Positions 10,388 through 27,780 of a DNA stretch of 64,000 nucleotides are shown here, one piece after another. The position numbers were made by a program, and so were the translations under genes. The stretch is taken from positions 124,001 to 188,000 of the forward strand of contig FMBT01000365.1 in assembly GCA_900095095.1 (NCBI GenBank), given 5' to 3'. The notes beneath the pieces were generated by a model. The model saw nothing but the letters and a program-made list of their open reading frames with translations. It had not been told where the DNA came from and made no database searches. How positions within the stretch are numbered: position 1 is the first letter of the stretch; every line of letters starts with the position of its first letter. Source of the DNA: Fragilariopsis cylindrus CCMP1102 (Eukaryota; Bacillariophyta; Bacillariophyceae; Bacillariales; Bacillariaceae).

Positions 10388-10911
10388 CTTGGAAAAATCT
10401 ACAGAAGAGCATTCGCCTAGGACCTATACTATCACGTCATATAATAAGTTCGAAACTTTGTTGATAATAGTAGGGCTATCACTAAAAGCTAATAGCAGAG
10501 TGATCTTTGTAAGTTAAGAATTACTTGAGGAACTTTTATGCAACAGATAAATATGTACAGTATGTATCTACTGTATAGGCCTAGTACCACCCCCGTACTG
10601 TACTGACACTCCATGGCCGTGAACTCAACGAAAAAAATGTAAATAATCACAAGAAAAAGTGACCAGTCGTGGATATTGTGGCGCGCCATTTCCAGTCCCG
10701 CTCAAATTTTCCACCACACAATATTTCCACACACATTTTTTATGAATGAATGAAAATCGAATATTTCATTTTGTAACGAAGTATAACGAAGAGACTTTCG
10801 ACGACTCACCATGTACAGTATTACAAATACTTGTAAATAACAAGCAAAAAACATTCGGCATCTCATTGGATCCAATAAGCTAATACTTTAACCAAATAAT
10901 AATAGGCAGCC
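10388..10911. promoter_or_regulatory. Divergent intergenic region, TRF4-like / ACL4
   Basis: 524 bases between head-to-head starts. It contains one exact GTACTGTAC at 10595-10603 and near copies (GTACAGTAT at 10555 and 10812), a word that recurs in other spacers of this window. No other element recognised. Confidence 0.4.
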
Positions 10912-23288: not shown

Positions 23289-23925
23289 TGTTGTATTATT
23301 TCTATTTGAGATATATTTAAAAACTTTGTGAGTAACGTAAAATATTGTATATGAGTACAATGGTGACTAAAAGCGGGAAGGTGTTGATTGTTTTTGGATG
23401 GGCATGCATTGGAAGATTTATCGTCGCCGCAAAAGGTATGTTACCGCGTGGTAGTAGTGTGCCAGCTTTAAAAAGCGAAAATTTAAATCGTGTAGCCGGC
23501 CCGGCCTAAAATAGCCCCGCGCCAGATTTTTGTTATGTGATATTGTATATTTGCAGGCCTATCTCAGTACCTAATAAGGCCTATCTCAGTACCAATCAAT
23601 ATTGAACTACCGGTACGAGTACTGTACCTACAAAATTCCACAATTGTGGATTTAATGGTACATCAAATACCTCTCGCGCGATAATGCTGTATGAAAATAT
23701 AAACTTAGGTACCGTTGCAAAAATACACGCAAAAATTGTATGTACAGCTCAATTTTTCCAGTACATTTTCCACCAATTGTAGTTCTCTTAGTGGAAAAAT
23801 CCACACGCCATATTACGTTAAAAATTGGATAAATTCCACCTCCGGGTCGCTCATTACAACACAACACAACATCACAAAATAACATAAAGAAGAAATAATA
23901 TAATAAAAGGAGATAGAACATAACG
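23289..23925. promoter_or_regulatory. Region upstream of the recombinase ORF, with repeats
   Basis: About 640 bases between H2A.Z and the tyrosine-recombinase frame. Contains a perfect 17-bp direct repeat (AGGCCTATCTCAGTACC at 23555 and 23577, period 22) and the left arm of an inverted repeat at about 23619-23650. The H2A.Z promoter must be in the left part. Confidence 0.5.
23619..23650 (+). repeat. Left arm of inverted repeat flanking the recombinase
   Basis: Contains GTACTGTACCTACAAAA then TTCCACAATTGTGGA, which is itself palindromic around ATTGTGG. The reverse complement of 26842-26878 matches its core with a few gaps. Confidence 0.6.
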
Positions 23926-26523
23926 ATGACGACAGATTTAAATCAAAACGAATCCGAATTCCCGGTATGTGGTGGATGGTGTGAGGGACCAAATAATAGA
24001 TGCATGTTGATTGGAGGGAGTAAACATCTCACTAGAGGATGTTTTGACCCTGTTGATGCAACAAAACCGAAGCACCCGTGTACATGGAACTGTGATAGGT
24101 ATCTTCATTCATCAATGTGTTCTGCTATTGAAGGAGCAACGGAGAACAAAGAAGAATGGCTGTGTATTACGTGTCGGGATCAAACTCGAGACAACAACAA
24201 TAACAACAATAAGAAGAAGAAGAAAAAGACACGGACAACAGGGACACGAAAACGAAAACGTAAAGCTTCCCAACAGCATGATGAAGAATTTGCTGCTGCA
24301 TTTGGTGGTGGTGGTGATGGTACTGCTACTGATGTTGACGATGGTCATAGTGATGCTGCTGCTACTACTACTGGTGCTACAACTGATGCTATTACTGATG
24401 GTAGTAGTACACTCCCTCCTGTTGCATCGTCAATGAGTAAAGCACCAAAGAAGAAGAAAGTAACAACAAAAGATAGACATCAATCAAATCTTAGGAGGTT
24501 TATGAATCACATACATGGTCGTAATGTAGCTGCAGATAATTTATTTGAGAAAGAACATGTTTGGACAAACGATGAAATGTTTGCTATCATGCCAGATCTT
24601 ATAGTTGGCTACTGTAAAGTACGTGCTTACGGTGATGCTGATGCCGATATTGAAACATCTCGTCCTACTTTTTGTCGTTGGGAAACATTACAGGCAGTTA
24701 AAAAAGGAATTTCATTTTTTCATCCAGAAAAAGATACTGATTGGAATATACGTAACAAAACAGGAAATCCTACAAGGTCAGTTGTTGTACGAAACTTAAT
24801 GAAGAAAGTCAATGATCACGAAATTGCAGGTAATGGAGCCACTTCAAAAGAAAGAGGCCCATTTGTTGAAGACGAATTTGAACAAACAATACATATGCTA
24901 GAAGCAAACAATAATTTTGAGGAACGTCTTTTTTCCTCTTCTATTTTTCGCACCCAATATAATCTTGGTGGTCGTGTTGATGATATATCAAAACAAAAGT
25001 GTGTGAATATCATTCCAAATAAGGATGTAGCACATAGTAATATATCTATAATAACAAGACTTCCGTGGAGTAAGAATGTAAAAACAAAAAAACAAGCACC
25101 ATGGCAGATTTTAATAGGGGCAAGCCATCCATGCTACTGTGTTTTGATTGGATTGGCTGTTTGGCTTGAATATATGATTATCTACGGCCGTGATGCAGAA
25201 AGTGAATTTGTGTACGCATTTCGGGGTAGCAACGATGAAGATGCAATTAAGCGAAAAGCATCTAGTATAATGGAGCGTGTTTTAAAAGATCCTGCCTTTG
25301 TTACTGTATTAGATGAATTAAAAGGAACACATTCAATGCGAAAGTTTGCTACTGACATGGCAAAAAAAATGGGAATTGTGAAAGATTGGATTGATCACCG
25401 GTTCAGGTGGTTATCGAAACGAATGCAAGATAATTATGCCTCTACTACTATCCCGTCCGTTGATGGTCAAGTTGCTGCTGCTTTATGTAAAGATGGTCCG
25501 ATTCATTATCATTTGAAAGAATATAGTGGTATTAATGATGAATGGGTATGTGATATAGTTTGTCCAAATATTACAAGAAAATTTGGGAAGCAAGTTGGTA
25601 AAGTTTTAGGACGTGCATTATTATGGTCCGTGTTTGATACAGAACAGACAAATGTTGTACCTAATTTTATGGTAGATCGTATTAAAGAAGAGTACAAGAA
25701 AGTGACCACAGAGGAAAAACAGTTAGCAGATGGCGAGAACCCTGTCGCAAAAGTTCCTTTGTATGTTTCTGGTGATTCAAATGGTAATTTAATTCTAGAA
25801 CCAATGATCGTTGGAGTAGATGAGGAAGAAAATATAGAAAACGAAACAGATAATGAACGTATGGAACGTCTTAGTAATCGATACAATGAAAAGAATTTGA
25901 AAGAACGTGCTGTTGTACAACGTAGCAATGGTGAGCAAATGGACCGAATAAGTTCTAACCAGGCCGCCTTAGATAGAAGGATAAATAGTATTGAGGGAAA
26001 CAATGAGAGAAGACATGAAGTATTATTGAAACGATTTGATCGGCAAGATACTTTACTTCGTTCAGTACTAAAACAACCATACCGTGTACTAGAAAAGGGT
26101 GGAAGAAAAAATGGTCTTCCTGATCATGATGGGAGAATATCAAGATTAGCAGCAGCAAACTCGGCAGTAGAAGCTGCAAGTGAAGCATCACGTTTACTTC
26201 CAAAATTAATGGATAATCCACGATGTTTACACACTCTATGGATGGAATATGAATTCGGATTGGGAGGAAAGAAAGCAGCTAAATTATTCACGGACAAGGA
26301 GAGAGGAGCAGATCGTTCACGTTATTCTAAGCGTCTTATATTTTGGGAGAAAATTTCTGAGATGGTCCGTGCGGGATGGACTAGTACTGCTGCTATTAAT
26401 ACAGTTATTAATCATTATGGTACGAACTTGTCTGTCTCCAAAGTTATATTGAAAATGCAGAAGGACAGAGGAGGGAAAAGTAGGAAGAGTACGTATCCTG
26501 CTGTATTAAATCTTCCTTCTTAA
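23926..26523 (+). CDS. Crypton-like tyrosine recombinase
   Basis: Intact 865-residue reading frame. Residues 15-83 are Cys-rich (C15, C19, C26, C39, C52, C56, C65, C80, C83), a PHD- or zinc-finger-like DNA- or chromatin-binding head; a basic and low-complexity linker follows. The catalytic core has the complete tyrosine-recombinase set with canonical spacing: R350 in GGRVDD, Lys in KTKKQ (386-389), H469 and R472 in THSMRKF, W495 in RWLSKR, and the nucleophile Y504 in MQDNYAS. The C-terminal block from about 766 (LWMEYEFGLGGKKAAKLF, then a W-containing helix) resembles the GCR1_C-type DNA-binding domain found in Cryptons. No introns. Because no catalytic residue is lost, it is either recently active or domesticated. 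Confidence 0.8.
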   Translation: MTTDLNQNESEFPVCGGWCEGPNNRCMLIGGSKHLTRGCFDPVDATKPKHPCTWNCDRYLHSSMCSAIEGATENKEEWLCITCRDQTRDNNNNNNKKKKKKTRTTGTRKRKRKASQQHDEEFAAAFGGGGDGTATDVDDGHSDAAATTTGATTDAITDGSSTLPPVASSMSKAPKKKKVTTKDRHQSNLRRFMNHIHGRNVAADNLFEKEHVWTNDEMFAIMPDLIVGYCKVRAYGDADADIETSRPTFCRWETLQAVKKGISFFHPEKDTDWNIRNKTGNPTRSVVVRNLMKKVNDHEIAGNGATSKERGPFVEDEFEQTIHMLEANNNFEERLFSSSIFRTQYNLGGRVDDISKQKCVNIIPNKDVAHSNISIITRLPWSKNVKTKKQAPWQILIGASHPCYCVLIGLAVWLEYMIIYGRDAESEFVYAFRGSNDEDAIKRKASSIMERVLKDPAFVTVLDELKGTHSMRKFATDMAKKMGIVKDWIDHRFRWLSKRMQDNYASTTIPSVDGQVAAALCKDGPIHYHLKEYSGINDEWVCDIVCPNITRKFGKQVGKVLGRALLWSVFDTEQTNVVPNFMVDRIKEEYKKVTTEEKQLADGENPVAKVPLYVSGDSNGNLILEPMIVGVDEEENIENETDNERMERLSNRYNEKNLKERAVVQRSNGEQMDRISSNQAALDRRINSIEGNNERRHEVLLKRFDRQDTLLRSVLKQPYRVLEKGGRKNGLPDHDGRISRLAAANSAVEAASEASRLLPKLMDNPRCLHTLWMEYEFGLGGKKAAKLFTDKERGADRSRYSKRLIFWEKISEMVRAGWTSTAAINTVINHYGTNLSVSKVILKMQKDRGGKSRKSTYPAVLNLPS

Positions 26524-27780
26524 GCACTAATTATATATCATTTAATATCATAGCTATTAATATATTTATTGTCTTCGTTGATGCTATCTTATCTTGCCAT
26601 TTTCACTTTTGGTGATGTTGACGACAACAAAAAAGGTTTCGTTTCACAGTTGTTTTACTAGTGTTTACTAGTGTTTCTGCCTTGTTAACTTTTTAAAAAA
26701 AACAGGTCAATAATCACTAGTAACTTTTACTTTTTGCAGTGTAATTACTAGTAAAAATTAGTTTTGATTCACAGTTGTTTTACTAGTGTTTCTGCTTGTT
26801 AATTTCTCTTAGTGCTTTTTACGTGTTATTTAATTGTGGATCGTACTGTGGATTTTTTTGTAGGTACAAGTACTGTACTATACTAATAGCTGCTTACTAA
26901 GGTACTTGTAGTATGAATGTTCAATCCAATTGTAATTCTCATGGGAAGTTACCACAGATACAAAGTACATCACAAAGGGTTGCAAAATTCACAATACATT
27001 ATTGGGAATTGAAATTTTTACCTGCCTATGACAAGCGAGCCCACCCATGATTTTGCTTCACACTTCTTAGAACCATGGCCCAAGATGATGATGATGATGA
27101 CAAAGAGAAACTGTACACTGATTCCCCATTTATTTTCAGTCACGATTCACGTATAGATATTGGAAGTAAGATAATCTAGTAAGCTTACAATTATTATACT
27201 TTACCATTGCAAATCCAAGACACATTCCTTATCTATAGTACACTAGATTAGAAGAAGTTGGCATCATGGCAGAAACTACACCAACCAATCAATTCATTTT
27301 TTCATTGAGAACAGATTACTAAGTCATCCATGGTTGTATTCTTAATGAACATATTGCTGGTGCACACCATCCTAAGTTACCAAAAAGTAGTGGTTCAATG
27401 TTGGAAGGGGCAGTCAGTGTCAGCACAAAATGAATGCACTCTCATACTCCCACATCATGTAGCACTTCAACTGCAACTCTAGTTTTTGTCCATTCTTGTA
27501 ATGTATCTTGGTCATGCCTATTTTTATTGACCATGACATTTAACAAAAGAATATTCAGCAACAAAAAGAGGTCTGAGGGTGCGGTGGATGATTGATTCAT
27601 GATACTACTGTCACACTAACTATATTATAGACACATAACTGCAAGTGGTTAATGGAACCAATATACAAAATCAACGAGTTTGTTTTAGAGTCAAAGAAGA
27701 TATTAATCTCGTATAAACATAGTAGTTAACGATCGGTTTTAATATGAATTGAGAACTATATTACTAGTAGCTACAGGGTA
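26524..27780. other. Gene-free stretch, partly CpG-depleted
   Basis: The first 360 bases contain tandem-like AT-rich repeats and the right inverted arm of the Crypton-like element. From about 26880 to 27700 CpG is nearly absent and no family is recognisable; a 35-codon frame at 27074 is not supported. Probably decayed repeat DNA. Confidence 0.45.
26842..26878 (-). repeat. Right arm of inverted repeat flanking the recombinase
   Basis: Reads GTGGATTTTTTTGTAGG then TACAAGTACTGTAC on the plus strand; its reverse complement shares AGTAC...GTACCTACAAAA and TCCACA with the left arm. Confidence 0.6.

Follow-up and report, generated by a model that had tools for sequence, protein, structure and literature searches.

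Cryptons are defined by a single open reading frame (ORF) coding for a tyrosine recombinase, by the lack of a reverse transcriptase or DDE transposase, by the catalytic residues R-H-R-Y and by constant short terminal direct repeats. According to PMC3212892, their boundaries are difficult to define for want of inverted repeats and long direct repeats. A circular DNA intermediate is proposed for them. Absence of terminal inverted repeats belongs to the usual description of Cryptons without being strictly required, and terminal inverted repeats of 16 bp are known from the composite MarCry-1_FO (PMC3212892). We analysed a 64-kb stretch of the Fragilariopsis cylindrus CCMP1102 genome (contig FMBT01000365.1, positions 124,001 to 188,000; hereafter the window). 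It holds an element with one tyrosine-recombinase ORF and neither a reverse transcriptase nor a DDE transposase, with catalytic R-H-R-Y in both intact copies and with constant short terminal direct repeats, but with 12-bp inverted arms at its ends. The element is Crypton-like, as the first-pass annotation had proposed, and departs from the usual description of the order in these arms.

CryptonF elements of fungi and oomycetes (Kojima and Jurka 2011, PMC3212892) resemble the window element in having a tyrosine recombinase and short direct repeats at their termini, which measure 6 bp in the majority of CryptonF. In CryptonF a GCR1_C domain follows the recombinase, whereas the window element has in that place a GCR1_C-like match under the cut-off, and it also has a cysteine-rich (Cys-rich) head and inverted arms. 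CryptonS elements, known from oomycetes and Phaeodactylum in the same paper, share the stramenopile range, diatom included, and have terminal direct repeats of 5-6 bp; they are without GCR1_C and most, not all, have TATGG termini, whereas the window element ends in TACTGTAC and retains a weak GCR1_C match. Starships (PMC9594970) also combine a tyrosine recombinase with short direct repeats at their ends, and one described Starship has inverted end repeats, but they are very large, cargo-bearing elements (143 and 294 kb in that paper), while the window element spans 3.25 kb with one ORF; unlike Starships, its protein has no DUF3435 match in a Pfam scan. The ends of integrated phaeoviruses with a tyrosine recombinase (PMC13236599) are thought to combine into an attP with inverted repeats, a minimal core is common to the target, and the empty homologous chromosome was compared. 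These are giant viruses that encode many genes and have CC as their core, and their likeness to the window element is one of site layout. The parts of the window element are as follows (positions are those of the window).

23620-26878, plus strand: whole element, both direct repeats included; ends taken from a comparison of three copies (window, C324, C565) with the empty site on C648
23620-23627, plus strand: left terminal direct repeat TACTGTAC
23624-23635, plus strand: left inverted arm GTACCTACAAAA, a 12-mer unique within the window
23637-23839: left subterminal TCCAC/GTGGA motifs at 23637, 23646, 23769, 23791, 23800 and 23835
23887-24216, plus strand: apparently exchanged cassette, 39 bp upstream of the ATG and Cys-rich head
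23926-26523, plus strand: recombinase ORF, 865 codons, uninterrupted
24886-25515, plus strand: tyrosine-recombinase core, residues 321-530, with R350, H469, R472, W495 and Y504 (from motif and spacing)
26206-26406, plus strand: GCR1_C-like tail, residues 761-827 (19.6 bits, Pfam cut-off 23)
26836-26852, minus strand: right subterminal motifs, GTGGA at 26836 and 26848
26856-26867, minus strand: right inverted arm TTTTGTAGGTAC, a 12-mer unique within the window
26871-26878, plus strand: right terminal direct repeat TACTGTAC

The first-pass annotation had noticed the inverted arms, each with TCCACA, and suggested that they may be paired recombinase sites. One TCCACA indeed lies inward of each arm, and the short direct repeat TACTGTAC, which on the left of the window copy extends to 10 bp (AGTACTGTAC), overlaps the arms. 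Joined right-to-left, the ends of the 3,251-bp unit read TTTTGTAGGTAC-AAGTACT-GTACCTACAAAA, i.e., 12-bp inverted arms around a 7-bp spacer, and tyrosine-recombinase sites have arms of 11-13 bp and spacers of 6-8 bp (PMC3212892). The joined ends fit this shape, and the arms do look like recombinase sites, but they would be the two halves of one site, united on end joining, and not a pair. Their use as boundaries held when checked against other copies in the genome (67.9 Mb, 818 contigs): on sequence comparison the arms as element ends are more than chance, since homology to the C324 copy stops there and, for the C565 copy, comparison with its empty counterpart yields identical boundaries. The C324 copy aligns by BLAST with 23598-26879, the first 22 bases of the alignment lying outside the repeat and being dissimilar by eye, so that the left flanks part at TACTGTAC; over 3,219 aligned bases the two copies show 118 differences, a figure inflated by a poorly aligned stretch near 26557-26736. 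TACTGTAC stands at both ends of all three copies read at both ends (window, C324, C565), and a left-end pattern allowing up to 2 mismatches matched the genome 28 times, against 2 for the reversed control.

To find empty sites, the joined flanks of 9 insertions were compared with the genome. Three of them have readable empty counterparts, namely the C565 copy and two insertions of a second family, an array on C464 and a copy on C120. The flanks of the C565 copy match C648 at 94.7% and 89.4% identity, with a single TACTGTAC in place of the element, those of the C464 array match C582 with one ACAGTACAGT, and those of the C120 copy match C442 at 85% with one TACAGT. C648 may be the other haplotype or a duplicated region; many light-harvesting genes have equal scores on two contigs, which suggests that the assembly holds uncollapsed haplotypes. 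Two further flank matches were not verified as empty sites: C384, a 78% match to the C54 flanks, has no TACAGT on either strand of the stretch inspected, and C617 matches the C640 copy in the left flank only. TACTGTAC contains ACTGTA, whose reverse complement is TACAGT, so the two families seem to share a target motif; by eye, the ends of a third subfamily lie near ACAGTA or ACATTA. Within the window the target motif is common, with 14 occurrences of TACTGTAC (9 on the plus strand, 5 on the minus strand).

Positions 23620-26878 thus very probably represent an autonomous Crypton-like DNA transposon that moves by end joining to a circle and insertion at TACTGTAC. In this model, the tyrosine recombinase would bind the inverted arms and join the two ends through their shared core, releasing a circle whose junction would be one classical site with 12-bp arms and a 7-bp spacer. 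Recombination of the circle with a genomic TACTGTAC would then split the site into two ends and leave the core on both sides, and insertion beside an existing copy would give a head-to-tail array. Mobility of the family is supported by the other copies and by the empty counterpart of the C565 copy, and the intact elements may still be active. Since ends, empty counterpart and predicted circle site can be read directly here, the mechanism is open to test.

The first-pass annotation had reported an intact 865-residue ORF, and the six residues that it listed as catalytic (R350, K388, H469, R472, W495, Y504) are all in place and invariant in the intact C565 copy. Their H-R-W-Y spacing of 3/23/9 equals that of Cre. 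K388 is the least certain of the six as the catalytic lysine; the broken C573 copy has H at this position while retaining K383 (WSK), and by eye it has Q at the position of R472. Nine Cys lie within residues 15-83, confirming the Cys-rich head, and the GCR1_C-like tail stands as a likeness under the threshold: the same stretch matches in all three tails (window 19.6, C565 22.5 and C573 19.5 bits), each under the Pfam cut-off of 23. Apart from GCR1_C, Pfam returned one weak chance match for the window ORF. A protein search of the genome at expectation values (E) up to 10 gave 30 matches, among which are the window ORF, several that cover the head alone and a few close to the chance level; the full-length relatives were C324 (93%, 8 stops) and C565 (71%, open frame). 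The claim that no decay is visible is correct for the window and C565 ORFs, but not for the copies on C324, C573, C131 and C420, which are broken. Over the whole coding sequence, the ratio of nonsynonymous to synonymous divergence (dN/dS) between the window and C565 comes to 0.22 (bootstrap 0.18-0.28), falling to 0.12-0.13 for the recombinase core and the tail; synonymous values above 1 approach saturation and are rough.

Several observations weigh against this reading. Tyrosine-recombinase profiles from Pfam, PHROGs and NCBIfam gave no match to the window protein at E up to 1, so that the assignment rests on motif and spacing, and the predicted structure of residues 187-620 is of poor quality (mean confidence, pLDDT, 34.6). 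No circle and no exact tandem junction of the window family was seen. The window copy has no empty allele in this assembly, and six of the nine joined-flank queries gave no verified empty site. The broken C420 copy has no TACTGTAC adjoining its left end and reads TACTGTAGTACCTAC instead. Finally, the statistics on the subterminal motifs, given below, are post hoc. A sequence search of PDB with the window protein gave nothing at E up to 10, a 2-row profile gave four weak stathmin matches (E 0.63-4.2) and no recombinase, and the predicted structure of residues 745-865 (pLDDT 62.0) was too poor for a fold search. The tandem-junction pattern had no exact match; allowing 2-3 mismatches, it was found four times (on each strand of C84, and on C140 and C144), against none in the control. 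These inverted-arm sites (C84:558-589, C140:2195-2226, C144:77178-77209) are possibly tandem junctions of relatives. In the C420 copy, near 10524, an insertion of about 422 bp immediately precedes the ATG; its ends look inverted by eye, and it may represent a further transposon.

Two features go beyond the first-pass annotation, judging from sequence: from one subfamily to the other the TCCAC motifs near the ends undergo a concerted change, and the head is common to other kinds of ORF. The ends of the window element hold 8 TCCAC in 385 bp where 0.81 are expected, those of the C565 element 8 TCAAC in 363 bp where 1.0 are expected, and neither holds the motif form of the other. When the two are aligned, the same third-base change from TCCAC to TCAAC is found in seven of the eight motifs, one of which has an additional change; the eighth, at 23791, differs and is not part of the concerted change. 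The other motif positions are identical at 30 of 32 sites, versus 181 of 281 outside the motifs (binomial values for the pattern of 6e-5 and 1.3e-4, both computed after it had been seen). Among 19 pentamers with at least four copies and a change, three show one uniform change in the majority of their copies, and all three overlap the TCCAC motif. The repeats probably serve as accessory sites that are bound by another DNA-binding part of the protein, either the tail or the head, and their concerted change suggests that they co-evolve with the protein. Lambda integrase systems likewise combine core-type arms with separate arm-type accessory sites, an analogy of layout alone. Repeat homogenisation, or chance, could have produced the same change without any meaning for binding, and besides the post hoc statistics, changes from C to A (11 of 53) and from G to T (6 of 36) also occur outside the motifs. 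Yet the motifs stand at aligned places with different neighbours, their other positions are far better conserved than the surroundings, and neither element mixes the two forms; we rather doubt this explanation, though it is a real possibility. If the repeats are indeed accessory sites, the concerted change would offer a naturally occurring test case for shifts in the DNA specificity of such a recombinase.

An array with an empty counterpart is what circle insertion would predict, and the second family provides one. On C464:224000-245500, four units of 3,841 bp, 99.9% alike, form an exact head-to-tail array in which the core ACAGTACAGT occurs once at each of the three junctions and once at each outer end, and a 907-codon open frame is kept in three of the four units. 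This family is called recombinase by eye, from R, YxxR (Tyr in place of His), W and Y; it has no telling Pfam match, and BLASTP of the window protein against it gave nothing meaningful (best E 0.15). Near its ends GTATACTTTT occurs five times, with none between. The left core varies around TACAGT in other copies. Unequal crossing-over or misassembly could also yield such an array, which would then be uninformative on circles, and it is the single exact case examined in full, with units alike enough to be hard to assemble. Single units with the same ends nonetheless exist elsewhere (C640, C324:417k, C120, C420:242k), each junction has one core, the empty counterpart is readable, and a second, partial tandem pair belongs to another subfamily on C134; we consider an origin of this kind unlikely. 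The C134 pair (217182-221915) consists of elements of about 1.6 kb without a long recombinase ORF, 99.8% alike over 1,235 bp, whose ends are related to the window family.

The Cys-rich head has, to judge by its divergence, been inherited separately from the rest of the protein, as an exchanged module. The 39 bp of the cassette that precede the ATG match at 100%. Between the window and C565, identity is 0.94-0.98 over 23917-24216, and synonymous divergence (dS) is 0.028 in codons 1-95 versus 0.54-1.73 in five other segments. In DNA, the window head is 96% identical to C565, 93% to ORFs on C306, C154 and C83, and 78-79% to large ORFs on C670, C158, C164 and C88. The MULE label of the C306 ORF comes from one match of 18.9 bits, under the cut-off of 27.6, and the remainder of that ORF has no transposase match. 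Conversely, the C573 recombinase core is 67-69% identical to those of the window and C565, but its head is of another type, which shares about 90% of its DNA sequence with ORFs on C184 and C158. Selection on the DNA of the domain might preserve such likeness without exchange, and the Cys pattern is conserved in the eight heads aligned, but this is very improbable given the low dS confined to the head and the different head of C573. Such sharing of the head suggests that, within a single genome, transposon classes without common origin have traded a domain. More tentatively, we propose that core arms and an accessory array read by a second domain may form a two-level site, that recombinase and array may co-evolve, and that within this genome the N-terminal head may be traded among transposons of the recombinase and the MULE-like kind and other large ORFs. 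The head-only search gave 13 genome matches. The Cys-rich head or the second head type is also present in large ORFs, the longest of which is open over 2,423 codons, and one of those bearing a head has weak DnaJ and fasciclin matches; these ORFs may be host genes or mobile.

That the window ORF is a host gene which derives from a transposon and is retained for cellular use is the least probable alternative and hardly credible: the intact ORF, purifying selection relative to C565 and a single occupied site whose outer flanks have no other match would fit it, but the defined ends are common to another copy, the intact-ORF copy on C565 has an empty counterpart, broken copies exist, and transposons that are still moving should likewise show selection between two lineages. 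The suggestion of host use in the first-pass annotation is accordingly not supported, as there are several copies, some broken, at sites occupied or empty.

No relative outside the source genome was confirmed in scans of viral and genome contigs, two of which, with a 2-row alignment, used short head or N-terminal patterns that may miss distant recombinases. The features reported here are not announced in the titles or abstract openings of the related literature searched, of which subscription papers such as Goodwin 2003 may hold more. In the 3' untranslated part of the window element, a 38-bp repeat occurs twice (26629-26807, 87% alike), and positions 26704-26807 share about 92% identity with the second recombinase family, whose protein shows no similarity to that of the window element.

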